Shown: positions 47,659 to 61,752 of the stretch, one piece after another
Numbering within the stretch: position 1 is the stretch's first letter
Layout of the letters: each line of letters opens with the position of its first letter
Source: Chlorobiaceae bacterium
GTDB lineage: Bacteria > Bacteroidota > Chlorobiia > Chlorobiales > Chlorobiaceae
NCBI GenBank assembly: GCA_013334485.1
Contig: JAAXXL010000005.1
Location: 1-64,000, forward strand
Direction of reading: 5' to 3'
Length of the DNA: 64,000 nucleotides
Program-made: the position numbers and the translations under genes
Notes under the pieces: model-generated
What the model was told of the DNA's origin: nothing
What the model saw: the letters and a program-made list of their open reading frames with translations, nothing else
Database searches by the model: none

Positions 47659-49148
47659 GCCGCAACCGGGTAATAGCTGGCCAGGCAGGTCTCTCCTACG
47701 GGGGATTTTTATTCGGTCAGGCATCAAGGTTTGCCTTTAACCTGCTGGTTGCAAGAGCACTCGGAGCAGAGGCGCTCGGAACCTATGCCCTTGCCATTGC
47801 TGTTATCCAGATTGCCGAAGTGCTGGCCATAGCCGGGTTTGATTCGGCTCTTTTGCGTTTTGTCAATCTGCACCAGGGTGATCCGGCTCGCCAGAAGGCG
47901 GTAATTGGCTCGGCAATCAAAACCGGCATGCTGCTCTCCTTTTCAGTAGCCATTCTTCTTCTGCTTTTTTCAGGCAGCATAGCCTCCATGCTTAACGGCA
48001 GCCGACTGCTCAAGCTTGTGATCTGCTGTTATGCGGCGGCTATCCCTTTTAATGTCTCAACGATGCTTTTCGGTCACGCCATGCAGGGCTTCAGCAGGCT
48101 ACAGCCGAAAATTATTGCCACCCAGATTATAAGCCCCCTTCTTCTGCTGCTGTTGACACCGGTATTTCTCTATACTGCCGGTCGAGATGAAGCGCTTTTT
48201 TTCCCTTTTGCACTGGCGGCGGCAGGCTCTTTCTTCTGGATCCGCCCAACGCTCAAAAAAATCACCGGAGTTGTTTCCACCGATATTCTTCGTGCAGGTG
48301 CTGATCGTGCCATGCTTGCCTATGCCTTGCCCTTCATGGGTGTTTCACTGTTGAGCATGATGACGCACTGGCTTGATGTGGTGATGCTTGGCATCTATAC
48401 CGACACGGCCTCGGTAGGGATCTATCATCCGGCAGCCAGAACGGCGGGTTTGATACGAGCCGTGCTGATTGCTTTTTCGGGAATTGCAGCTCCGATGATT
48501 GCCGAACTGCACTCCGGAAGTCAGAAGGGGGAGATTGAGCGGATATACAGGATGGTGACGCGCTGGATCGTTGCGATTGTGATGCCCGCAGCTCTCTTTT
48601 TTATGTTGCTTCCTGAGCCGGTACTCAACCTCTTCGGCTCCCGCTTCGGGGCGGGCCGCACTGTTCTTGTGTTATTGACAGCAGCTTCACTCATGCAGGC
48701 AAGTTTCGGACTTGCTTCAACAGTGCTTGCCATGACGGGTTATTCACGACTCAGCTTCATCAATGCTCTTGGAGCGTTCCTTCTGCAGGTTGTTTTGAAT
48801 GCGCTTCTGATACCCCTGATGGGCATTAATGGTGCTGCGCTTGCCACCCTGATTGTGTTTATTCTGCTCTCCGCGCTCCGGATTGTGGAGGTTCGCCACG
48901 TTCTGACTATTACTCCTTTTTCTGTATCGCTCTGGAAGCCCCTGGTTTCGGCTATTCTGGCCGGAATGCTGCTGTTTGCTTTGCGACCATGGCTGCTTGC
49001 ACTCTCTCCGTTTATCAGCCTTGCAGCGGGAGTCGCTCTTACGGCGGGCAGTTATGCTGCAGTGATGCTGCTTCTGAAGTTGGAAGAGGAGGAGCGGGAG
49101 ATTATTTTAAAGTATATGCCCTTTTCTGGCAAGCAACCAAAGCAATAA
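47655..49148 (+). CDS. Wzx-type polysaccharide flippase
   Basis: A membrane protein of 497 residues with 12-14 helices and the MATE/Wzx pattern: GQAGLSYGGFLFGQASRFAFNLLVARALGAEALG, YALPFMGVSLLSMMTHWLDVVMLG, IGAAPMIAELHSGSQKG-type loops. It should move lipid-linked glycan units across the inner membrane. The likely start is the TTG at 47655 overlapping the stop of the preceding gene; the ATG at 47592 falls within that gene. Located centrally in the glycan operon. Confidence 0.87.
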   Translation: MSRNRVIAGQAGLSYGGFLFGQASRFAFNLLVARALGAEALGTYALAIAVIQIAEVLAIAGFDSALLRFVNLHQGDPARQKAVIGSAIKTGMLLSFSVAILLLLFSGSIASMLNGSRLLKLVICCYAAAIPFNVSTMLFGHAMQGFSRLQPKIIATQIISPLLLLLLTPVFLYTAGRDEALFFPFALAAAGSFFWIRPTLKKITGVVSTDILRAGADRAMLAYALPFMGVSLLSMMTHWLDVVMLGIYTDTASVGIYHPAARTAGLIRAVLIAFSGIAAPMIAELHSGSQKGEIERIYRMVTRWIVAIVMPAALFFMLLPEPVLNLFGSRFGAGRTVLVLLTAASLMQASFGLASTVLAMTGYSRLSFINALGAFLLQVVLNALLIPLMGINGAALATLIVFILLSALRIVEVRHVLTITPFSVSLWKPLVSAILAGMLLFALRPWLLALSPFISLAAGVALTAGSYAAVMLLLKLEEEEREIILKYMPFSGKQPKQ

Positions 49149-49152
49149 CGCT

Positions 49153-51549
49153 GTGAAAAAAAAGATTCTTCCGCTGCTCGCTCTTTTCGGGCTTTATACC
49201 CTTCTGGCACTGCTGCTCTTTTGGCCGCTTGTTTTTCAGTCCAGTACGCTTGTTGCTCCGGACTCGCTTATTCCACATGCATCAACCATCGCGCTTGACA
49301 AACTTCAAACAGAGAGCGGCCTCTACCCGCTCTGGCAGCCATGGCTCTTTTCAGGGATGCCGACGGTTGAAGCGTTAAGCTATATCAGCGGACTCTATTT
49401 CCCCAACATCGTGTTCAGCCTGTTCAATACCAGCGGCATTCTTCTTCAGCTTCTTCATCTTGCCTTTGCGGGTTTCGGGGTTTTTCTTTTTCTTCGCCAG
49501 TATGGTTTGACTACCCCTGCCGCACCGTTCGGCGGGGCGCTCTTTATGCTTAATCCCTACATGACGGCCATGCTGGTGCATGGTCATGGCAGTCAGCTCA
49601 TGACAGCAGCCTGGATGCCCTGGATGCTCTGGGCTGTTATGCGGCTCATGCAGCGCGGAGGGCTTGTTGATGCCGGGATTCTGGCGATTATCGCCGGATT
49701 TCAGTTGCAGCGCTCACATGTTCAGATTGCTTACTACTCATGGATGCTTGCACTGCTTCTTGCTGTTGTGCTGTTTTTGTTCGGTCGGGATTCATGTAAA
49801 AGTGAGGGCAGCCACAAGGGCGGCCCCTACAGGATATTGTTGTTGATGGCCGCGCTCGGGTGTGGTGTTGCCATGTCGGCATCAATCTATCTGCCTGCTT
49901 CGGAATATGCGGCATATTCCGTGAGAGGGATGGCTGCTCAGGGCGGCGCCTCATCGTGGGATTATGCTACCCTCTGGTCGATGCACCCCATGGAGTTGCT
50001 TACTTTTCTCATACCGGGATTTTTCGGATTTGGCGGAGTGACCTACTGGGGCTTTATGCCGTTCACCGATTTTCCCAATTATGCCGGAATTGTGGTGCTG
50101 CTGCTTGCCGTTGCAGGCGGATACAGCCGCCGAAAAGAGCCGATGATATGGTTTTTCACTGCTGGCGCACTGCTTGCCCTCTTGCTCTCCTTCGGCAGGT
50201 TTTTCAGCCCCGTTTTCGATCTCTTCTATCATTTCGCGCCTCTCTTCAGTCGCTTCAGGGTGCCATCAATGGCGCTTATCATACTCTATCTTATTATCTC
50301 CTTTCTTGCGGCAATCGGAGTGAACGATCTGCTTCAGCGCTCGAACGAACGGATGGTGAACCCGATCCGGATCGGTGCGCTGTTGCTTGCAGTTTTCCTG
50401 TTGATTTTTCTTGCCTTTGATCAATCCATAGAGAGCTTTTTCCGTGCACTCTTTCCCGAGCCGCCGGTTGAAAGCTTCGACCTCGCCTTTATGATTAACA
50501 AGGTTCGCTGGGAGAATCTGAAAGGAAGCCTCCTGATCGCGCTCTTCACCCTCCTGCTTTTTACGGGTGTTTTCTGGCTTGGTATCAAGGGCAAGCTCTC
50601 CCATCAGATGACGGGGTTCCTCTTCTTTCTGCTTGCGCTTCTTGATCTTTTCTGGATTGACATACAGATTATCTATCCATCCGAAAGTTCTCTGCGTTCT
50701 CCGGTCTTTGCCGAAAGCCGTCAGGTGGGTCGGGCTTTTCAGCCTGACGACATTACCCGATACCTTGCAGCGCAGAAAGGGGCATTCAGAATCTACCCCG
50801 CAGGGCCACTTTTTGCAGAGAACAAGTTCGCTCTCTCCGGAATCGAGTCAGTCGGAGGTTACCACCCCGCCAAGCTCAAGATTTACGAGGAGTTTCTCGC
50901 AAAAACGGAGAATCTTTCGAGCATCAACATTCTCCGGATGCTCAATGTCGGCTACATTGTCACCCCTCTCCCCCTCAATCACTCTGCCCTTGAGCTGGTC
51001 AAAACCGGCACACTGCAACTGGCAGGTGGTCCGGTACCGGTAAATGTCTATCGCTTGCAGTCAACACTTCCACGGGCCTGGTTTGCAGAGCGGGTGAGTA
51101 GCGTGCAGAGTAGCGACGAGCTTTTCTCCCGCCTGCTTGATGACGCAGCTCTGCAGGGTGAGGCTTTGGTTGACGCTTCGCTCTGGCGCGGCACCAGAAC
51201 TTTTGCTCCGGCAACAGTAACCTCGATTCAGAGGAGGTCAGAATCGATGAGCCTGAAGGTTTTGGTTCCGGGTGACGCTTTTCTGGTTGTGAGCGAGATC
51301 TATTATCCGCTTCGCTGGAAGGTGACGGTGGACGGCAGACCGGCCGAAATGGTCCGGGTAAACGGATTGCTTCGCGGCGTCAGGGTTCCTGCCGGCAGCA
51401 GGGAGGTTCATTTTTATTATGATCGAAGCTTGTTTGACAACGCCCGGCGCATCTCGCTCGGAGCGTTTGGCGTGGCGCTGCTGATGATTGCAGGGGGTTT
51501 TGTTGTTGGACAGTTGCGGAAGAAGCAAATAGGAAAATGTACGATATAG
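49153..51549 (+). CDS. YfhO-like integral membrane protein
   Basis: A 798-residue protein with about 12 N-terminal membrane helices, the YfhO-type opening (LLFWPLVFQSSTLVAPDSLI, WQPWLFSGMPTVEA), and a large extracytoplasmic C-terminal beta-rich region followed by a last helix (ISLGAFGVALLMIAGGFVV). YfhO proteins are GT-C-like and are linked to glycosylation of lipoteichoic acid or surface glycans. It starts with GTG 4 bases after the flippase. It is the last gene of the glycan operon. Confidence 0.83.
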   Translation: MKKKILPLLALFGLYTLLALLLFWPLVFQSSTLVAPDSLIPHASTIALDKLQTESGLYPLWQPWLFSGMPTVEALSYISGLYFPNIVFSLFNTSGILLQLLHLAFAGFGVFLFLRQYGLTTPAAPFGGALFMLNPYMTAMLVHGHGSQLMTAAWMPWMLWAVMRLMQRGGLVDAGILAIIAGFQLQRSHVQIAYYSWMLALLLAVVLFLFGRDSCKSEGSHKGGPYRILLLMAALGCGVAMSASIYLPASEYAAYSVRGMAAQGGASSWDYATLWSMHPMELLTFLIPGFFGFGGVTYWGFMPFTDFPNYAGIVVLLLAVAGGYSRRKEPMIWFFTAGALLALLLSFGRFFSPVFDLFYHFAPLFSRFRVPSMALIILYLIISFLAAIGVNDLLQRSNERMVNPIRIGALLLAVFLLIFLAFDQSIESFFRALFPEPPVESFDLAFMINKVRWENLKGSLLIALFTLLLFTGVFWLGIKGKLSHQMTGFLFFLLALLDLFWIDIQIIYPSESSLRSPVFAESRQVGRAFQPDDITRYLAAQKGAFRIYPAGPLFAENKFALSGIESVGGYHPAKLKIYEEFLAKTENLSSINILRMLNVGYIVTPLPLNHSALELVKTGTLQLAGGPVPVNVYRLQSTLPRAWFAERVSSVQSSDELFSRLLDDAALQGEALVDASLWRGTRTFAPATVTSIQRRSESMSLKVLVPGDAFLVVSEIYYPLRWKVTVDGRPAEMVRVNGLLRGVRVPAGSREVHFYYDRSLFDNARRISLGAFGVALLMIAGGFVVGQLRKKQIGKCTI

Positions 51550-51915
51550 GGCAACAGAATATCCCGCTTTCGACGGACGGAAAATGATCTTTACGTGTAT
51601 GTGGAGATTTCTGTCATGGTATGTTTTCGCAGGTACATAGTAGGGCTGGTTTTGCTACTTGCAGAAAAAATTAATACATTTAAATCGATTTGTATTCCTT
51701 TTAGCAGATTAGGTATCAATAGCTTTGTTAGACTTGGTTGAGATCAAAGGTGTTATACATTATTTCGTGGAACGTATAAGAAAAGTGAGAGATTGTTAAT
51801 ATTTTTGACGGTCAAAAATATTAACAGCTTTTTTCATGGCTATGAATTAGCACCCTACGTGTCACAATTCTGAATTTATTGTTTAACAACGTTTTAACAG
51901 AGCGAGAGTTATTTT
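51550..51915 (+). other. Gene-free stretch before the ATPase-TIR gene
   Basis: AT-rich sequence marking the shift from the GC-richer glycan operon to the accessory block. It holds a perfect palindrome at 51795-51825 but no gene I can support. Confidence 0.5.
51795..51825 (+). promoter_or_regulatory. Perfect 15-bp palindrome (operator or terminator)
   Basis: GTTAATATTTTTGAC and GTCAAAAATATTAAC are exact inverses around one base. It is followed by AGCTTTTTT, so it may terminate the preceding transcript. The near-zero spacer also suits a dimeric DNA-binding protein. It lies 91 bases before the ATPase-TIR gene. Confidence 0.6.
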
Positions 51916-53391
51916 ATGCCTGAACCACAACTGCAAGATGTTTTTAAAACAAGTGGAGTTCCCTCCTATACTTTCGTACAGCCACAAGAGTATGTTCGTC
52001 TCTTATTGAATCTTCGCACATCTGGACGTGGCCTAGTAATAGAAGGGCCATCAGGTATTGGCAAAACAACAGCTGTAGAGAATGCACTTATTGAGCTTGG
52101 GTTATCAGATACGGTGACTAAACTCTCTGCTCGTTTGCCTGAAGATATTGAATATATTGCTGAATTGCCGATAATGGGCAAAGTTGGAACAGTTATTGTT
52201 GATGATTTTCACAAGCTTCCTGATACGGCGAGACAGGCACTTGCAGATTATATGAAAACATTAGCGGATCGATCTTCGACTGAAGTAAAAATTATCGTTG
52301 TAGGTATCAATAAAGCTGGGGAAAATCTTGTTCACTTTGCACATGATTTGGTTAACCGGCTTGACATTGTACCTTTCGAAAGCAACCCTGATGAGCGAGT
52401 TGAGGAGCTGCTGACCAAGGGACAAGAAGCTTTGAATATTAGTCTCAACATAGTTCCAGAGATTGTTCAAGCTGCAAAAGGCAGTTTCTTTCTTGCTCAG
52501 ATGTTAGCGTTTGAGGTTTGCCTTGCATCTAATATTACTAATTGTCAAGATGAGCGACGCATTGCAGAAACAAGCTTTGAAGCTGTTAAAGCTGAAGTAT
52601 GGAAGCGATTGAGTGTTAGTTTTCGTAAGCGGTGTGAAAGGTTTTGTCGGGGAAGTAAGATGAAGCCGGCAGGTCGGGCGCCTTATTTGCATATACTGAA
52701 ATGGCTAGCAGAGGAAGGAGACTGGACATTAGATCTTCGAGAAGCTATGCGACGACATAGAGAGATGACCGGAAGTGTGGGTCAAGTAGTGACCAAGGGA
52801 TTTCTTGCTGAGAATATTGATAGTGATGTGGATATTGGTGCTGTTCTTCATTTTGACGAGGCTTCAAAGCAGCTCACTGTTGAAGATCCACTTTTTGTTT
52901 TTTATATCAGAAACATGCCATGGGCTCTTTTTGCTCGTGAATGTGGATTTGTTTCTGTTGATTTCCAACATAGATATGATTTTGCGCTCTCTTTTGCAGG
53001 CCAGCAGCGAAGGGTTGCTGAAGCTCTTAACGCGGCCCTGCTGGAGCATCAAGTTGAGGTTTTCTACGATCGAAATGAGCAGCACCGGATTCTGGCTCAG
53101 AATGTAGAGGAGTACCTTCTTCCCATATATCAGTCAGAAGCTCGCTATGTCATTCCACTGCTGAGTTCTGAGTACCCTGAAAGAATCTGGGCACGGATAG
53201 AAACTGATGCATTTAAAGCGCGATTCGGTGACAATGCAGTTATCCCAATTTGGTTCAGTAATGCATCGCCAAGTGCGTTTGATGAATCCCGAAGGTATGG
53301 AGGAGTAACATGGAATGTTGATGATAATTTGATCGCACAGGCCGATCAAATCGCATCTGTGTTAGTTCAAAAACTTGCCGAAGATCGTTAG
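51916..53391 (+). CDS. ATPase-TIR fusion protein
   Basis: A 491-residue protein. Residues about 20-240 are a P-loop ATPase with Walker A GPSGIGKT (44-51), Walker B VIVDDFHK (93-100) and a helical lid. Residues about 240-350 look winged-helix-like. The last 140 residues are a TIR domain (YDFALSFAGQQRRVAEAL, VEVFYDRNEQ, VIPLLSSEYPERIWARIE) with a W-x3-E (WARIE) at the expected catalytic place. This is the plan of STAND/AAA-type TIR defence proteins, where sensing unlocks NAD cleavage. The target is unknown. Codons are AT-richer than in the glycan operon. Confidence 0.83.
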   Translation: MPEPQLQDVFKTSGVPSYTFVQPQEYVRLLLNLRTSGRGLVIEGPSGIGKTTAVENALIELGLSDTVTKLSARLPEDIEYIAELPIMGKVGTVIVDDFHKLPDTARQALADYMKTLADRSSTEVKIIVVGINKAGENLVHFAHDLVNRLDIVPFESNPDERVEELLTKGQEALNISLNIVPEIVQAAKGSFFLAQMLAFEVCLASNITNCQDERRIAETSFEAVKAEVWKRLSVSFRKRCERFCRGSKMKPAGRAPYLHILKWLAEEGDWTLDLREAMRRHREMTGSVGQVVTKGFLAENIDSDVDIGAVLHFDEASKQLTVEDPLFVFYIRNMPWALFARECGFVSVDFQHRYDFALSFAGQQRRVAEALNAALLEHQVEVFYDRNEQHRILAQNVEEYLLPIYQSEARYVIPLLSSEYPERIWARIETDAFKARFGDNAVIPIWFSNASPSAFDESRRYGGVTWNVDDNLIAQADQIASVLVQKLAEDR

Positions 53392-53838
53392 TCTATTGTA
53401 GAGGGATACTCCTGTCGGAGTTCTATGAGCGGCTTTGACAAAAGAATTGGAGATAAAATACGTTAACCATCATGCCTAATCATGCCGCTGTTAGAATTTG
53501 GGTTATAAATCCAGTGGAAATGATGTAGTAACGCATGTAAGAGGTTGTGAACGATGTTCGGTAATGCGCATAAATATTTGCGTAGTATAGGGGGTGATTT
53601 TTTTATTTACACTATTTTTTGTACATTCGTAGCCTAATATTGTTACATGACAGTTAAATACGCTTTTATTTCTTTGTCGCATTGATTGCAGGTGGCGTAT
53701 TTTCTGTTATATGTATATTGTTAGCTAAACATATAACGGATAAGTATAAACTGCTTTTTATAGGCAGGTGAGGTGAACGCATTAATCACTTGTTGTTAAG
53801 GCTAAATACTGACGAAGGATTAATGGCCATTATTTTTT
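53392..53838 (+). other. AT-rich gene-free stretch
   Basis: No gene can be supported here. At 53682-53771 a 29-codon TTG-started frame encodes a hydrophobic segment (ALIAGGVFSVICILLA type), which may be a remnant. AAATACGC and GCGTATTT at about 53655 and 53696 form a small inverted pair. The stretch probably holds the promoter of the three-gene unit that follows. Confidence 0.45.
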
Positions 53839-54354
53839 ATGACTACAAAAAATCGCACTCAAAACGAAATATCGGTGTTTGGTGTTTATGCTATTTATTC
53901 TTCCGTTGTGTGGGGATATGTATTTTCTAAATGCCAAGCAGAACAAAAGGTACTTGATAATTTCATTATTCGTGATAAATGTTTGCCGGTTGGTATAGAT
54001 TGGTTTTCGGATTTTTTTATGCGTTTTATCAGTTTTTTTTCGAGTAATAATACGTCAGATATTTCTATGATGGTCAGTGTTTCGATGGCTATCTGTTTCC
54101 AATTATTATCCATATATTTATGGATTAACTTTATTATGGTCCGATTAACTGTTCCGAATAAGTTGATAGGGCTAAAAAAAATCCTTTTTTTATTCATGGT
54201 GTTGATAAGTTCACATTGGTGGATTTATTCGCTGTTTAACGACTATATGACAAAGTTATACGTTATTATATCAGGGGGTTTATTTTATGCGTCTATTTTT
54301 ATCCTTGCTAAAGATTCGCCACTAAAAAAAATAGGTATTTTGAGAACCAGTTAA
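53839..54354 (+). CDS. Hypothetical membrane protein, first gene of AT-rich unit
   Basis: A 171-residue protein with four likely helices (FGVYAIYSSVVWGYVF, MMVSVSMAICFQLLSIYLWI, ILFLFMVLISSHWWIYSLF, LYVIISGGLFYASIFILA) and a hydrophilic loop after the first. The N-terminus (MTTKNRTQNE) is polar with no cleavable signal. I recognise no family. Its stop is 7 bases before the next gene, and codon use is strongly AT-biased, unlike the flanking operons. Possibly the membrane component of the three-gene unit. Confidence 0.65.
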   Translation: MTTKNRTQNEISVFGVYAIYSSVVWGYVFSKCQAEQKVLDNFIIRDKCLPVGIDWFSDFFMRFISFFSSNNTSDISMMVSVSMAICFQLLSIYLWINFIMVRLTVPNKLIGLKKILFLFMVLISSHWWIYSLFNDYMTKLYVIISGGLFYASIFILAKDSPLKKIGILRTS

Positions 54355-54361
54355 CAATATT

Positions 54362-55237
54362 ATGCTACTATATTTAATTAGTATATTAATTCCTGTACTA
54401 ATGCTTTTATGGGTGGTACTGATTGATCGGAAGTATGTATATAGATCAAAAATTATAAGCGCCCTTCCACCTACTAATTCTTTTGCTAATTATCAGAAAG
54501 GGATTTGCGATATTCATAATAAAATTTCGCCTGATAAATGCATTAATGATAAAAAAAGACAGACCAAATATTTTAGTATTTTAGCAAAAAGGCATAAAGG
54601 GCTTTGGATCCCCTTTTGGTCAATTATTTATAGACTATTTTCTAGTAGATATTTTGCTTATAACCAATTCTCTGTAGTATATATCTCTTCATATGGGGGT
54701 ATATCTGAAGTTTCTCGAAGAAAAATAACTTCAGATGGGGGAATAAAAAAACTAAAAAAACTTCGTGAAGATTTAAAGTATGCTGTTGTAAATAATGAAA
54801 AGGCAGAGATAATAGCTAATTTAGCTGACATTTATAGGTTTATGTATGACCTTGATAAAGATAACGCAATAGATTCTATGCGAGTTGGGTATTTGGTAGA
54901 AGATTTAGAAGAAGTTTGTAGACACATGTGTGAAAAGGATTTGGTGAATGCATATATTTGCTGGAGATCAAAAGAAAAATATTTAAATGAAATGAGTGAT
55001 ATGGAGATTATCATTTATGGATCAATACGATTGCATCTAGAAAAATATATTATTTCTTATGAGTATCCAGTTAATCCAAAAGATATTGAGGATGATATTG
55101 AGGAGTTTTCAAACATGCTTAAAGCCACACTTCAGTGGATTACTATGGATATCTTTCAAAAAGTAAAATTTTTAAGTAACCTGAGTGTTATTATGATGCT
55201 GGATCTGCTAGGCAGTCGTATAGAGTATAAAGTATGA
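54362..55237 (+). CDS. Hypothetical membrane-anchored protein, second gene of AT-rich unit
   Basis: A 291-residue protein with one N-terminal helix (MLLYLISILIPVLMLLWVVL), then a basic soluble region. Cysteines are scattered (GICDI, DKCIND, EEVCRHMCEK), and the C-terminal half is helical (NLADIYRFMYDLDKDNAI, SDMEIIIYGSIRLHLEKYI). I recognise no domain. It starts 7 bases after the first gene and ends 15 bases before the phosphoribosyltransferase-like gene, so the three look like one operon. Confidence 0.65.
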   Translation: MLLYLISILIPVLMLLWVVLIDRKYVYRSKIISALPPTNSFANYQKGICDIHNKISPDKCINDKKRQTKYFSILAKRHKGLWIPFWSIIYRLFSSRYFAYNQFSVVYISSYGGISEVSRRKITSDGGIKKLKKLREDLKYAVVNNEKAEIIANLADIYRFMYDLDKDNAIDSMRVGYLVEDLEEVCRHMCEKDLVNAYICWRSKEKYLNEMSDMEIIIYGSIRLHLEKYIISYEYPVNPKDIEDDIEEFSNMLKATLQWITMDIFQKVKFLSNLSVIMMLDLLGSRIEYKV

Positions 55238-55252
55238 TTACGTGATTAGGTT

Positions 55253-56434
55253 ATGGTTGATAATTTTAAAGTTATTAATAATTTCATTTTAGAAGATCCT
55301 ACATGGATGTGGGACGAATGGAATTTCTTTTTTTATTTTGACGATATTTGTGATTTTTTTAAAAGCCATGAAGATGATTTTAAAAGTATAGTTGATCAAT
55401 CAGACGTTATCTGCTCATTAGGGAAATCCGGGATGGTTTTTGCTACCTATCTTTCTGTGATTACAAGAAAACCGTTAGTTGTCTTTTCTGTTGGAGAGTT
55501 TATTCACCAAGGAGCATATGTTATAGGGTTCACAAAATCTGAAGATCAGATAGTTAAGGGGAAAAAGCTGCTTGTTGTGGACTCTCATATTCGTAGTGGT
55601 AACACGATTAAAATGATGGGCAATTATATAGCACACAATGATGTTGAGGATGTGAAATGGCTGACAATTATGGATTGTAGGAGTGCCAAAAAAAGAGAGG
55701 AGATGCATAAGTACGACATTAGAAGTATCTGTGATTTTTTTCCTGATATTCGTAATCAAGTTATTAAAGTGACAGACGATGAATTTTTACTTGAAGATGA
55801 AAGCTTTTGGATGAAAAAAGAGGAGTATTGGCTTGGAAGAGACTCGATAAAATTGAAATTCTCTAACCAAGATTCGAGTGATAAAGAAATAGCAGAAAAA
55901 CAAGAAAAAATAAATTATTTCGATATTACGTTATTTGATAAGTCATCAAATAAATATTTTATTCCGTTGCATTGTATAAAAAATAGCGAATACTTTGGTC
56001 GCATGATTGGTTACTTTTACGATACTTTAACTCAGGATGAAATTGATGTGGATAAAAAGTATCTAATATTACCATTGACTTTAGGCGCTTTGCCAATTGC
56101 AGTTTCGCTTGCATACTCTTTCTATCATTCCGGATGTGCTGTTAGGTTTTTATTTCCGCTTTTTCGTACAGAAAAATATTTTAGAAAAAAGCTAGATGAA
56201 GTAGCGGATTATACTGTGATAATAATCGATGATGTTATAACTACTGGCGGCTTGATATATGCGTTTTATGATAAATATCTAAGAGATGTGTTTACTGATG
56301 TCAATTTAATTGCACCGCTAAAATTAAAAATCGGTTCAAATTCAGATGCAAAATATGCAAAATATTTTTATAATGTATCAAAATGCATAATAGACAATGG
56401 TGGTAAAGTTATTGTCGGTCAAGTACCTTTTTAA
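55253..56434 (+). CDS. Tandem phosphoribosyltransferase-like protein
   Basis: A 393-residue protein with two PRPP-binding-like motifs. One is VVDSHIRSGNT (108-118), preceded by SLGKSGMVFATYL (55-67). The other is IIIDDVITTGG (323-333), preceded by LPLTLGALPIAVSLAYSF. The hydrophobic strand, DD/DS and T/S-G pattern is that of type I phosphoribosyltransferases. The first copy has DSHIRSG in place of the usual acidic pair, so it may be degenerate. Two PRTase folds in one chain, with linked membrane proteins, is not a salvage-enzyme arrangement that I recognise. Enzyme role unproven. Confidence 0.65.
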   Translation: MVDNFKVINNFILEDPTWMWDEWNFFFYFDDICDFFKSHEDDFKSIVDQSDVICSLGKSGMVFATYLSVITRKPLVVFSVGEFIHQGAYVIGFTKSEDQIVKGKKLLVVDSHIRSGNTIKMMGNYIAHNDVEDVKWLTIMDCRSAKKREEMHKYDIRSICDFFPDIRNQVIKVTDDEFLLEDESFWMKKEEYWLGRDSIKLKFSNQDSSDKEIAEKQEKINYFDITLFDKSSNKYFIPLHCIKNSEYFGRMIGYFYDTLTQDEIDVDKKYLILPLTLGALPIAVSLAYSFYHSGCAVRFLFPLFRTEKYFRKKLDEVADYTVIIIDDVITTGGLIYAFYDKYLRDVFTDVNLIAPLKLKIGSNSDAKYAKYFYNVSKCIIDNGGKVIVGQVPF

Positions 56435-56441
56435 ATATTAA

Positions 56442-56747
56442 GGGCACCTCTAATAATTGATATAGATCATAATTTCAGACGTTACCATCTTTTTATATCT
56501 GTTCTTTGTCAATTTTGAGCGGAAAATGCTCCGTTGAGCTTACAACAGGTCGTACTTATCCGATGACAGCATAGATATTTTTTTTGAGCTGTACGCAACG
56601 CATCATGTTATAGGTCAAGTTCATCAGACCAATTTTTGCAGCAGCACTGAGAATACCTATTGTATCAATGTGCATAGCATCCATGCTGTTGGTCATATAG
56701 CCTTAGATATGTTCAACTCTTGCTCTGAATGTTGATTTAAACCATTA
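56442..56747 (-). mobile_element. IS5-like transposase remnant with one end
   Basis: Reading the minus strand from 56744 to 56556 gives WFKSTFRARVEHI, an in-frame stop (56703-56705), then GYMTNSMDAMHIDTIGILSA, AAKIGLMNLTYNMMRC and a final stop. This is the C-terminal end of an IS5-family transposase (RARVEH and the YNMMR helix). The outer edge GGGCACCTCT at 56442 looks like an IS terminal repeat. The rest of the element is gone. Bases 56748-56857 hold only a 24-codon frame with no recognisable product. Confidence 0.75.
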
Positions 56748-56857
56748 AATCATAGGGTGCTGTTATGAGCGACAAGAACGAGAAAGAACTTTTAGATTCA
56801 GTTGTTGGCGTCAACCGTTTCTCTGCGGCTGACGGTTGACGCGGCATCTTCGATTTA

Positions 56858-57205
56858 CTACGTAATGTGCTCACGAATTACTTCTTCTTCAACCGCTTTT
56901 TGAATGAACTGATTTAAAGAGATTCCCTTCATTAGAGCAAGTCTTTTTGCATTTTTGTGCAAGTCAGGAGCTATTCGGACATTGAAACTTCCTTTGTAAG
57001 ACTTATCAGTTTTCTTGCCGATTTCTTTACATAGCTCTATGTAATCGTTTACGGCCTCATGAAATGCCTTTTTCAGTTCAATCACACTATTGCCTTCAAA
57101 TGAAACAAGATCTTCAATCCCCTCGATCTTGCCAAAAAACACCTCGTCATCTGCATTGAAGTGCACCGATCCTACATAGTCTTTATAGAGCAGAACGTCT
57201 TTCAT
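56858..57205 (-). CDS. hicB: HicB-family antitoxin (long form)
   Basis: A 115-residue HicB: N-terminal partial RNase H-like part (YVGSVHFNADDEVFFGKIEG, VSFEGNSVIELKKAFHEAVN) and a C-terminal ribbon-helix-helix (GSFNVRIAPDLHKNAKRLAL...SLNQFIQKAVEEEV). It could bind operator DNA on its own. The matching hicA upstream is only a stub, so this antitoxin appears orphaned. It lies next to the IS remnant. Confidence 0.88.
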   Translation of the reverse strand: MKDVLLYKDYVGSVHFNADDEVFFGKIEGIEDLVSFEGNSVIELKKAFHEAVNDYIELCKEIGKKTDKSYKGSFNVRIAPDLHKNAKRLALMKGISLNQFIQKAVEEEVIREHIT

Positions 57206-57303
57206 ACAAGCCCCCTTGATTTCAGTTCCTCAATGACCAGTTCAATTTGATATTGTTTTAACTCATTACCCGGATGTGGTTTGTGCTGTGCAAAACGATA
57301 GAG
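57202..57303 (-). pseudogene. hicA: HicA toxin stub
   Basis: Read in the frame ending at 57202, the minus strand gives LYRFAQHKPHPGNELKQYQI and on to LKSRGLV, then the stop, which overlaps the hicB ATG. HPG-N-ELKQYQI matches the C-terminal end of the HicA type that pairs with long HicB. A stop (57304-57306) sits immediately before it and the N-terminal part, including the catalytic histidine, is missing. Confidence 0.7.
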
Positions 57304-57352
57304 TCAGGCTGCTGGAGTAGTCGCCAGACAGCTTCTGCGCATGTTCAGGCAT

Positions 57353-57754
<402 letters not shown>

Positions 57755-57918
57755 TTATCAGTCATACCAGACAGTGTTAAAGGCCCAATCAGTATAATCG
57801 GGAAATAGCAAGAGTTTCTTTCCGTAATATAGGCACTTTGTATGTTATAGTGGACCCCGATCTGCCGGGAGCCGGATGCAGGCTCGTCAAGCTATACAAC
57901 AATGCGTTGTCAACCCCC

Positions 57919-58263
57919 TTACGTTTCCCTATCGCTTTCTCCGGTCTGCGGCTTTTTGCGTGGTGCTCTTCTTCGCCGGGGAAGCGATTCATCCTGCAGG
58001 CGGCGGCCGGGAGCATCCTCTTTGGCGATCAGCGACAAATCTTCGAGCAGCCCAAGTTCACGAAGCACCTCCACATAGAAGCCTATAGCAACCGAAGGGT
58101 CACCATTCTCGATTTTATAGAGCGTCGGGCGTGACATATCAGCCCTGAGGCAGACTGCCTCCATGGAAAGTCGGCGACGGAGCCGTGCATCCCTGAGGCG
58201 TTCTCCGAGAGCGGTCAGCTCTAATTGCGATGCAGGATATAGTGGAGCCTCTTTGTTTTTCAT
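57919..58263 (-). CDS. XRE-family HTH transcriptional regulator
   Basis: A 114-residue protein with a Cro/C1-type HTH: LGERLRDARLRRRLSMEAVCLRADMSRPTLYKIENG (residues about 19-54), GFYVEVLRELGLLEDL, and a very basic tail (PRRRRAPRKKPQ). Such proteins often serve as HipB-like antitoxins, but no toxin gene follows it; 57734-57918 holds no recognisable gene. The start codon lies inside a large imperfect inverted repeat, so self-repression is likely. Confidence 0.83.
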   Translation of the reverse strand: MKNKEAPLYPASQLELTALGERLRDARLRRRLSMEAVCLRADMSRPTLYKIENGDPSVAIGFYVEVLRELGLLEDLSLIAKEDAPGRRLQDESLPRRRRAPRKKPQTGESDRET

Positions 58264-58319
58264 AACGATAATTAATATTTACATAATAAGAATCATTTGT
58301 AAAATATTATTACCGTTAT
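58262..58319 (-). promoter_or_regulatory. Large imperfect inverted repeat over the XRE start
   Basis: The arm 58262-58283 (ATAACGATAATTAATATTTACA, in two halves ATAACGATAAT and TAATATTTACA) matches the inverse of 58298-58319 at 17 of 22 positions, with 14 bases between. It covers the start codon and upstream region of the XRE gene, where its operator would be expected. Confidence 0.55.
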
Positions 58320-58323
58320 ATCA

Positions 58324-58362
58324 TATTTCGAATGCAATAGCCAGCATACTGCATTCGAAATA
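58324..58362. repeat. Perfect 13-bp inverted repeat
   Basis: TATTTCGAATGCA (58324-58336) and TGCATTCGAAATA (58350-58362) are exact inverses with 13 bases between. It adjoins the larger inverted repeat upstream of the XRE gene. No T-run follows, so it is not a classical terminator. Confidence 0.7.
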
Positions 58363-58591
58363 CCTTCAAATAATGCAGAAGAGATCATTATTCGGCACTT
58401 CATTTCTATCGACTATTTCTCACCTTTTCGTCTATTCCTGTGATCTGTTTTCTTTGAATCGGGTACGTTTCCGGAGCCCTTCGTGGATGGCAGAAACTCC
58501 TGTAACTACGGGCTTTTTAGCTTGTTGAAGAGGGGGTTCTGCGGGGCTGACTGATTATTATCAAAAGAGTTGAAAAATGTTTAATTAGGTT

Positions 58592-58619
58592 TTGTTTTTT
58601 TTCATAATTCGCTTACATT
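58592..58619 (+). promoter_or_regulatory. Candidate promoter of the str operon
   Basis: TTGTTT (58592-58597) and TACATT (58614-58619) are 16 bases apart, about 75 bases before rpsL. Found by eye; supported only by position. Confidence 0.3.
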
Positions 58620-58693
58620 GTCTGTCCTTATGGAATTTTAGTGTATTGCGTTTTTCGTAATCATAGGTTTTTAAATAGAAAGAGAGTTTTAGT

Positions 58694-59101
58694 ATGCCGA
58701 CGATTCAGCAGCTCATCAGGCTCGGAAGAAGTGTAAAAGCGTCAAAAACAGCGTCACCGGCGCTTGAGAAGTGCCCGCAGAAGCGTGGCGTTTGTACGCG
58801 TGTCTACACGACTACTCCTAAAAAGCCTAACTCCGCACTCCGCAAGGTTGCGCGTGTCAGGTTATCCAACAAGATTGAGGTTACAGCCTATATTCCCGGT
58901 GAAGGTCATAACCTGCAGGAGCATTCAATTGTTTTGATTCGTGGCGGCAGGGTGAAGGATTTACCTGGTGTGCGTTATCATATTGTGCGTGGTTCGCTGG
59001 ATACGTCCGGTGTTGCTGATCGCAAGCAGAGTCGGTCGAAGTATGGAGCCAAACAGCCGAAAGCTGGTGCAGCCGCTCCTGTCAAGGGTAAAGGCAGATA
59101 A
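58694..59101 (+). CDS. rpsL: 30S ribosomal protein S12
   Basis: A 135-residue S12 starting [12 protein letters not shown]. It has the decoding-centre [19 protein letters not shown] loop and [10 protein letters not shown]. It keeps the wild-type lysine of PKKPNSA, so no streptomycin-resistance substitution is seen there. A GAGAG site precedes the ATG. First gene of the str operon. Confidence 0.97.
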
Positions 59102-59127
59102 GTCGAATCATAAATTCAGAGAAGAGC

Positions 59128-59595
59128 ATGTCAAAAAAAGGTGGCTATAAAAAAATCGGTGTCGATTTTCGTTACGGCGATGAGAGTGTTGCCCGTTTTA
59201 TCAACGCTGTAATGCTTGATGGCAAGAAAGCTGTTGCTACGAAGATAGTCTATGACGCGTTTGGTATCATTGCTGAGAAGATGAGTGGCGAGGATCCTCT
59301 GGAGGTATATCGCAAGGCGATGTCTCATATTGCTCCGGTAGTTGAGGTTCGCAGTAAGAGAGTTGGTGGTGCGACTTATCAGATTCCGATGGAGGTCAAG
59401 GCATCCAGAAGAGGAGCGTTGGCATTTCGCTGGTTGAAGCTTTATGCAGCAAAACGTGGCGGTAAATCTATGGCTGAAAAGCTCGCTGCCGAGTTGATGG
59501 ATGCTGCTAACGAGCAGGGAGCATCGGTGAAAAAGCGTGATGAAGTTCATCGTATGGCTGATGCGAACAAGGCGTTTGCGCATTTCAGGTTCTAA
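59128..59595 (+). CDS. rpsG: 30S ribosomal protein S7
   Basis: A 155-residue S7 with the usual [20 protein letters not shown]-type opening, [18 protein letters not shown] and the C-terminal [21 protein letters not shown]7 nucleates the 30S head by binding 16S rRNA. It lies 26 bases after rpsL and 42 before fusA. Confidence 0.97.
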
Positions 59596-59637
59596 GGTGT
59601 TTTGTGAAAGTGTTGAATAAAAGGCAAAAAATTTGTT

Positions 59638-61752
59638 ATGGCAAGGCTGGTTGATTTAGATAAAGTTCGCAATATCGGCATCATGGCTCACATCGATGCT
59701 GGAAAGACAACGACGACAGAGAGGATACTCTACTATACCGGTCGTCTGCACAGGATGGGTGAAGTGCATGACGGTGGTGCGACGATGGACTGGATGGAGC
59801 AGGAGAAGGAGCGTGGGATCACGATTACCTCTGCGGCTACAACCTGTTTCTGGGTGCCGAAGTTCGGTAACTATTCCGGCGTCAATCACAGAATCAATAT
59901 TATCGATACTCCCGGACACGTTGACTTCACAGTTGAAGTTGAGCGTTCCCTGCGTGTGCTTGATGGCGCTGTAGCACTTTTCTGTGCTGTCGGTGGTGTT
60001 GAGCCTCAGTCCGAAACGGTCTGGCGCCAGGCGAACAAGTATGGTGTTCCGAGAATTGCCTATGTCAACAAGATGGATCGTACGGGCGCTAACTTTTTTG
60101 ATACCGTAAAGGCTATCAGGGAGAGGCTTGGCGCAAACCCGGTTCCGCTTCAGATTCCTATCGGCGAAGGCGAGATATTCGCCGGTTTTGTCGATCTGAT
60201 CAGGATGAAGGGGATTATATATGATAAGGAAGACGGAAGCACCTATAATGAAGTCGAGATTCCTCATGACCTGCAGAATGAAGCAAGGACATGGCGTATC
60301 AATATGCTTGAGGCGGTTTCCGAGGTTGATGATACTCTCCTTGAGAAGTATCTGAACGGTGAGGAGATTACCGAGGAGGAGGTTCGTAACGTTCTTCGTC
60401 AGGCTACGCTCAAGGTTACTATTATTCCTGTACTCTGCGGTTCTTCGTTCAAGAACAAGGGTGTTCAGTTCATGCTTGACGCTGTGGTTGAGTATCTTGC
60501 CTCTCCGGTTGATGTCGGAGCTGTCGAAGGTCACCACCCGCGTACAGATGAGCCTGTAACCAGACAGGCGAGTGATGATGAGCCATTTGCCGGTCTTGCT
60601 TTCAAGATTGCAACTGATCCCTTTGTCGGAAAGCTTACCTTTTTCCGGGTCTACTCAGGTGTTCTGAAGGCAGGCAGTTATGTGCTTAACACCATGACCG
60701 GAAAAAAAGAGCGTATCGGGCGTATTCTTCAGATGCACTCTAACAAGAGAGAAGATATTGATTGTGTTTATTCGGGTGATATTGCAGCGGCTGTTGGTCT
60801 GAAGGATGTCAGGACAGGCGATACGATCTGCGATGAGGCGAGTCCGGTGGTTCTTGAGAAAATGGTTTTCCCTGAGCCTGTTATTCAGATTGCTATCGAG
60901 CCTAAAACCAAAGCTGATAACGACAAGCTTGGTATGTCGCTTGCAAAACTTGCTGAGGAGGATCCTACTTTCAAGGTCAAGACCGATGATGAAACAGGTC
61001 AGACATTGATTGCCGGTATGGGTGAGCTTCATCTTGAGATTCTGGTTGACAGACTCCGTCGTGAGTTCAAGGTTGAGGCAAATGTCGGCCAGCCACAGGT
61101 GGCTTACCGCGAAACCATCAGAAAGTCTGTTGAGTTCGAAGGTAAATTTGTTCGTCAGTCGGGTGGTAAAGGTCAGTTTGGTCTCGTCGTTCTCCGTGTT
61201 GAGCCGCTTGAAGAGGGCAAGGGATATGAATTTGTTGATGCAATCAAGGGTGGAGTTATTCCGAGAGAGTATATCCCTGCTGTAAATGCAGGTGTTCAGC
61301 AGGCGATGAAAAGCGGCGTTGTTGCCGGATTCGCAATGCAGGATATCAAGGTTACCCTTCTGGATGGCAAGTATCACGAGGTTGACTCTTCGGAAATGGC
61401 CTTCAAGATCGCTGGTTCTATCGGTTTCAAGGGTGGAGCAAAGAAAGCTGATCCGGTTCTGCTTGAGCCGATCATGAAGGTTGAGGTTGTAACACCTGAA
61501 GAGTATCTCGGCGATGTCATGGGTGACTTGTCGAGCCGCCGTGGTCACATTGAAGGTATGGGTCAGAGGGCCGGAGCCCAGTTTGTTAATTCCAAGGTGC
61601 CTCTCTCTGCGATGTTCGGTTACTCGACTGATCTTCGCTCAATGAGTCAGGGAAGAGCGAACTATTCGATGGAGTTCGACTGCTATCGCGAAGTTCCCCG
61701 CAGTGTTGCGGAGGCGTTGCAGGAGAAGCGGGTAAGCAAGGATTCGGAATAA
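59638..61752 (+). CDS. fusA: Elongation factor G
   Basis: A 704-residue EF-G driving translocation. The G domain has [19 protein letters not shown], the switch region [28 protein letters not shown] and NKMD; domains II-V follow, with [14 protein letters not shown] near the end. It has the single-copy str-operon position between rpsG and tuf. Confidence 0.97.

Follow-up and report, generated by a model that had tools for sequence, protein, structure and literature searches.

Type I phosphoribosyltransferases (PRTases) normally carry two adjacent acidic residues in their PRPP motif, and tandem PRTase-fold domains within one chain are found in PRPP synthetase and in the ADPR-PP synthetase of phage NAD+ reconstitution (Prs family). 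PRTases are also proposed or tested components of defence systems, such as III-A retrons and DprA-PRTase (PMC9122126, PMC12548924), and have been proposed for Ter immunity and for the polyvalent proteins of phages and plasmids (PMC5512222). Several defence systems include PRTase-fold proteins with unknown chemistry, the retron PRTases among them (PMC9122126). Here we analysed a 64,000-nucleotide stretch of a Chlorobiaceae contig (JAAXXL010000005.1; the window), from a genome of 2.59 Mb in 130 contigs, belonging to a genus with at least 36 relatives in our comparison. A first-pass annotation of this DNA had proposed that three AT-rich genes, the last of them encoding a tandem PRTase-like protein, were acquired by transfer and may form an undescribed defence or stress system.

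The three open reading frames (ORFs) were recovered at the positions first annotated (Table 1), separated by gaps of 7 and 15 bp. Their codons are AT-rich as described, with GC contents of 0.32, 0.30 and 0.32 and GC3 values of 0.32, 0.24 and 0.26, compared with 0.48-0.53 (GC3 0.46-0.59) for the flanking YfhO-like, rpsL, rpsG and fusA genes. As a control for chance ORFs, the AT-rich stretch was subjected to 300 dinucleotide shuffles. The longest shuffled ORF had 169 residues (95th percentile, 111), so that the 291- and 393-residue frames lie far beyond the shuffle maximum, whereas the 171-residue frame is barely above it. Codon-position GC displayed a coding-type bias in the 291-residue (0.39/0.28/0.24) and 393-residue (0.41/0.28/0.26) frames, but no bias in the 171-residue one (0.30/0.32/0.32). 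Because it just exceeds the shuffle maximum and lacks codon-position bias, the 171-residue ORF is the least certain gene of the three, and may be no gene.

Table 1. Features in and around the three-gene unit (window positions)
Feature	Position	Strand	Remarks
Accessory insert, ~6.4 kb	about 51550..57920		between YfhO-like gene and HTH gene/rpsL; absent there in sister species G015
TIR-ATPase (STAND/AAA-like NTPase, C-terminal TIR), candidate defence gene	51916..53391	+	TIR_2 E 3.9e-7; PADLOC PDC-S59 E 9.9e-22
171-residue hydrophobic protein, no family	53839..54354	+	3-4 predicted membrane segments; weak gene call
291-residue protein, no family	54362..55237	+	one N-terminal membrane segment, then soluble, mostly helical part
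393-residue tandem PRTase	55253..56434	+	N-half HPRT/phage-PRTase-like, VDSHIRSGNT; C-half OPRT-like, IDDVITTGG
N-half, PPi loop (DVICSLGKSGMVFA) to PRPP motif (VVDSHIRSGNT)	55403..55606	+	aligned with IMG/VR PRTases L071, L074
C-half, PPi loop (LILPLTLGALPIA) to PRPP motif (VIIIDDVITTGGL)	56063..56254	+	aligned with phage OPRT-like L069, L070
Putative IS remnant	56441..56720	-	terminal repeat GGGCACCTCTAATAAT and 46-residue frame resembling transposase C-terminus; assigned by eye
hicB, complete, with apparently broken hicA beside it	56858-57350	-	hicB matches PF05534, E 6e-22
Retropepsin-like (clan AA) aspartic protease ORF	57353-57733	-	weak Pfam match, E 0.009

Both PRPP motifs noted earlier are present in the 393-residue protein, LLVVDSHIRSGNT at residues about 106-118 and VIIIDDVITTGG at about 322-333, and profile searches support a tandem arrangement. 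Pfam Pribosyltran (PF00156) matched the whole protein over two stretches (E 2.4e-11), with 43.6 bits against a gathering score of 26.3, and it also matched each half separately, the N-half with E 1.3e-8 and 34.8 bits, the C-half with E 0.0045 and 16.7 bits, the latter below the cut-off. The N-half is closest to PRK02277, archaeal HPT and phage PRTases, and aligns with stand-alone phage enzymes, while the C-half is closest to OPRT and matched the pyrE model TIGR00336 with E 1.6e-4 over 102 residues. The PPi-loop and PRPP-motif positions are recognisable in both, as in type I PRTases of the HPRT/APRT/OPRT superfamily, but unlike these the protein carries two heterologous PRTase domains in one chain. 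BLASTP of the N-half against the C-half gave no alignment. Since the halves fail to align, a tandem duplication of a single domain was rejected, and we infer that two different PRTase lineages were fused. As judged from the motif residues, neither half retains every catalytic hallmark. In VVDSHIRSGNT of the N-half, the second acidic residue is replaced by S (D-D changed to D-S). The C-half motif IIIDDVITTGGL retains both D residues and an intact TTGG loop, but its last residue is L, and the OPRT loop RKxxKxHG is missing from this half, with FRTEKYFRKK in its place. An AlphaFold model built on a three-sequence alignment reached a mean pLDDT of 41, with 64-79 in the N-half core; the C-half was modelled at low confidence, with a strand/helix order that fits OPRT. 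The 50 Foldseek matches listed for this low-confidence model were PRTase-fold proteins, archaeal HGXPRT first (best E 8.8e-4). A PRTase fold is supported by the profile searches and is consistent with Foldseek on this low-confidence model.

The defining features of PyrE, Prs, Ter, retron and ShosTA proteins were tested and are lacking, and the 393-residue protein is therefore not classifiable as any of these. It falls under every NCBIfam cut-off. PyrE membership was rejected, as the C-half scored 21.5 bits against the 106.8 of TIGR00336 and is devoid of the RKxxKxHG loop; of the two, the missing loop weighs more, because the genome's own pyrE also misses this cut-off (75.6 bits). Prs membership was rejected as well, TIGR01251 matching just the 26-residue PRPP motif of the C-half (E 0.029). 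Tandem PRTase-fold domains are common to Prs and to this protein, but the N-half described here has a PRPP-like loop, which is not known from Prs N-domains. The PRTases of Ter systems are separate proteins or TRSP fusions, and are not known as an HPRT-like and OPRT-like tandem. PRTase_2 (PF15609) matched the N-half below threshold (20.1 bits, cut-off 28.8) and no ter gene is found among the insert proteins, which speaks against Ter membership; in those systems, two PRTase domains are proposed to make a nucleotide-like metabolite (PMC5512222). A type III retron PRTase module was rejected, with no reverse transcriptase among the insert proteins and no retron RNA, an Rfam scan of positions 51400-58600 returning no match but one chance snoRNA. 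PADLOC matches of the PRTase to ShosT (E 0.0022 over 42 residues) and PRTase_III-A (E 0.02) were weak and partial and the insert has no DprA, so that ShosTA/DprA-PRTase membership was also rejected. As in DprA-PRTase/ShosTA-type systems and type III retron effectors (PMC9122126, PMC12548924), an accessory PRTase-fold protein occupies a mobile, defence-type location, but membrane proteins are found here instead of DprA, reverse transcriptase and retron RNA.

The membrane character first ascribed to the two upstream proteins was confirmed by the hydrophobic segments of the 171-residue protein and by one strong segment at residues 3-21 of the 291-residue protein. Profile searches detected no transporter family in either, and neither matched a PADLOC model. 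A PRA-PH/MazG-like reading of the 291-residue protein was rejected, its matches being sub-threshold (E 0.007-0.016) and the ExxE/ExxD pattern apparently lost; the predicted structure, with a pLDDT of 43, was not usable. Upstream of the three genes, at positions 53650-53770, a frame resembling a small membrane protein (FVALIAGGVFSVICILLAKHITDKYKLLFIGR) is out of frame with the preceding MTVKYAF start. Another membrane-linked PRTase was observed in IMG/VR (L077, 1485-2321), where a membrane segment at the N-terminus is combined with a PRTase motif (IIIIDDVLTTGQS) at the C-terminus.

The insert that holds the three genes is flanked by core genes, both on the same contig. The corresponding locus of the sister species G015 aligned by blastn with window positions 48501-51497 at 82% and 57921-60269 at 91%, two segments that are adjacent in that genome. 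There, the HTH gene lies within about 70 bp after the YfhO-like gene (protein 85% identical) and is followed by rpsL. The insert borders are approximate, and no target-site duplication was identified. The low-GC composition and the absence of the insert from the same site in G015 support the transfer proposed from codon usage, and place the PRTase gene in an accessory position rather than in that of an ordinary salvage gene. The insert opens with the TIR-ATPase gene and the three-gene unit; an apparent IS end comes next, then hicB and the adjoining broken hicA-like frame, and last the retropepsin-like gene. The IS remnant, present in a single copy in the genome, begins about 7 bp past the PRTase stop codon and may mark a truncated operon end; its short frame gave no NCBIfam match. 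In this genus, the YfhO-rpsL interval is a variable site, and at least two species have TIR-type genes there. In G029 it contains an NYN nuclease gene and two ThsB-like TIR genes (locus L055, 5525-7612), in G003 a biosynthetic gene cluster, and other genomes display larger rearrangements.

The TIR-ATPase, the upstream neighbour of the three-gene unit, is probably a defence gene. Its match to PDC-S59 is limited to residues 73-332, whereas the TIR part matches PDC-S66. Plasmids of Gloeothece, Azospirillum, Acetobacter, Curtobacterium and Pantoea encode relatives with 29-52% identity, that of Pantoea next to TIR and CBASS genes, and relatives with 29-57% identity occur in four other genomes of a 394-genome Bacteroidota sample. 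In one of these (G198, locus L084, 7354-10133), the relative adjoins a ThsB-like TIR gene (PADLOC E 4e-81) and a PDC-M50A membrane gene (6e-47), a trio that may constitute one composite system. TIR-ATPase relatives elsewhere thus adjoin Thoeris (TIR/ThsB)-, CBASS- or PDC-M50-type genes. In G303 (locus L085, 707-3067), a relative is followed by an Ion_trans_2 channel gene, a possible TIR-ATPase/channel pair. One could imagine the TIR-ATPase joining the three genes in a larger NAD+/nucleotide immune system, in which TIR signalling or NAD+ cleavage would act upstream and the PRTase and membrane proteins would serve as effector or recycling arm. Indeed, they share one insert and the same strand, 447 bp apart, and Bacteroidota relatives of the TIR-ATPase precede membrane-protein genes (locus L086), the ion channel gene or the ThsB/PDC-M50 pair. 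However, the three genes are absent at all nine loci examined with TIR-ATPase relatives, the intervening 447 bp contain no intact gene, and the GC content of the TIR-ATPase gene (0.43 versus 0.30-0.32 in the three genes) suggests separate origins. We consider such a joint system improbable.

A search for the same three genes in other genomes and defence islands, suggested at the outset, found no second instance among the searched sets. For the full-length PRTase, searches of 60 related genomes, 394 Bacteroidota, 164 and 123 genomes from two further orders, plasmids and phages detected no relative, and pattern scans of IMG/VR and GTDB (84,980 species) likewise gave no full-length relative. The IMG/VR scans recovered just single-domain phage PRTases (L069-L071), L074 and L077 coming from later scans. 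The 291-residue protein is missing from the same 60 related genomes and had no relative among several hundred Bacteroidota genomes, plasmids and phages; the 171-residue protein had none in plasmids, and the DNA of the last two genes had no match in E. coli genomes. Because the whole-genome searches covered Bacteroidota and the GTDB scans relied on short peptides, relatives in other phyla may have escaped detection if less than about 50-60% identical; the scan peptides were picked via alignments with artificial rows, and those alignments carry no evidential weight. Since the searches reach about 30% identity, as the recovery of TIR-ATPase relatives shows, the three-gene unit is either rare, more divergent, or from outside Bacteroidota. 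With no relatives found for the PRTase and the 291-residue protein, neither a conserved operon nor a statistical link to defence genes supports the proposal. The host genome has its own canonical pyrE (193 residues, beside a prephenate dehydrogenase-like gene) and apt, and the 393-residue PRTase is therefore surplus to housekeeping.

That the DNA looks foreign in composition, that the sister species lacks the insert, that the company is of defence type and that the PRTase is surplus all favour an accessory module over housekeeping genes. The earlier suggestion of a defence system holds in part: the data support a transferred, accessory unit in defence company, next to a PDC-S59-like TIR-ATPase, but the three genes themselves have no good PADLOC match and were found in no second genome. 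In addition, lying close to a single defence gene counts for little, because the insert also holds non-defence or decayed cargo, such as the IS end and the broken hicA. Our tentative conclusion is that the three genes were gained by lateral transfer and make up an accessory module, most likely for conflict or stress of the anti-phage type, a reading that we prefer to two other explanations. In one, the module would serve nucleobase uptake and salvage, the membrane proteins importing a base and the tandem PRTase, with two domains for two substrates, making nucleotides. The homology to HPRT/APRT/OPRT families, the intact DD motif and TTGG loop of the C-half, and the presence of membrane proteins in the unit are consistent with this idea, which we nevertheless regard as unlikely: neither membrane protein belongs to a transporter family, the 291-residue one having a single membrane segment, the OPRT loop residues and the second acidic residue of the N-half are lost, pyrE and apt are encoded elsewhere in the genome, and the insert is shared with a TIR-ATPase.

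The other explanation takes the three genes for orphan cargo, fast-evolving or decaying in an unstable insert and kept by chance, devoid of present function. The lack of detected relatives, the IS end right after the PRTase gene, the broken hicA, the frameshifted membrane ORF (about 53650-53770) and the doubtful 171-residue ORF would all fit. By contrast, neither the 291- nor the 393-residue frame is interrupted, both show codon-position GC bias, and PRPP motifs are recognisable in both PRTase halves, arguing against mere decay; we judge orphan cargo to be as unlikely as salvage.

If the three genes act in conflict or stress, as we tentatively propose, the tandem PRTase would work in the cytoplasm, with PRPP and either a base or a nucleotide as its ligands. 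Catalysis, directed at the PRPP/nucleotide pool, would more likely reside in the C-half, where IIIDDVITTGG is kept, and the N-half, having lost its second acidic residue, might sense a ligand or be degenerate. The single-pass 291-residue protein, together with the multi-pass 171-residue protein if the latter is a real gene product, could tether the PRTase or transduce its signal at the membrane, linking the three proteins in an anti-phage function whose outcome might be, for example, growth stop or membrane damage in infected cells. A more specific version, which we consider doubtful, is a previously undescribed membrane-linked immune module with an HPRT-like and OPRT-like chimera at its core, sensing or draining PRPP or nucleotides during infection and possibly coupled to the TIR-ATPase through NAD+/nucleotide signalling. 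A chimeric tandem PRTase with membrane partners in a small insert offers a compact object to test whether such domains act on PRPP and nucleotide pools.
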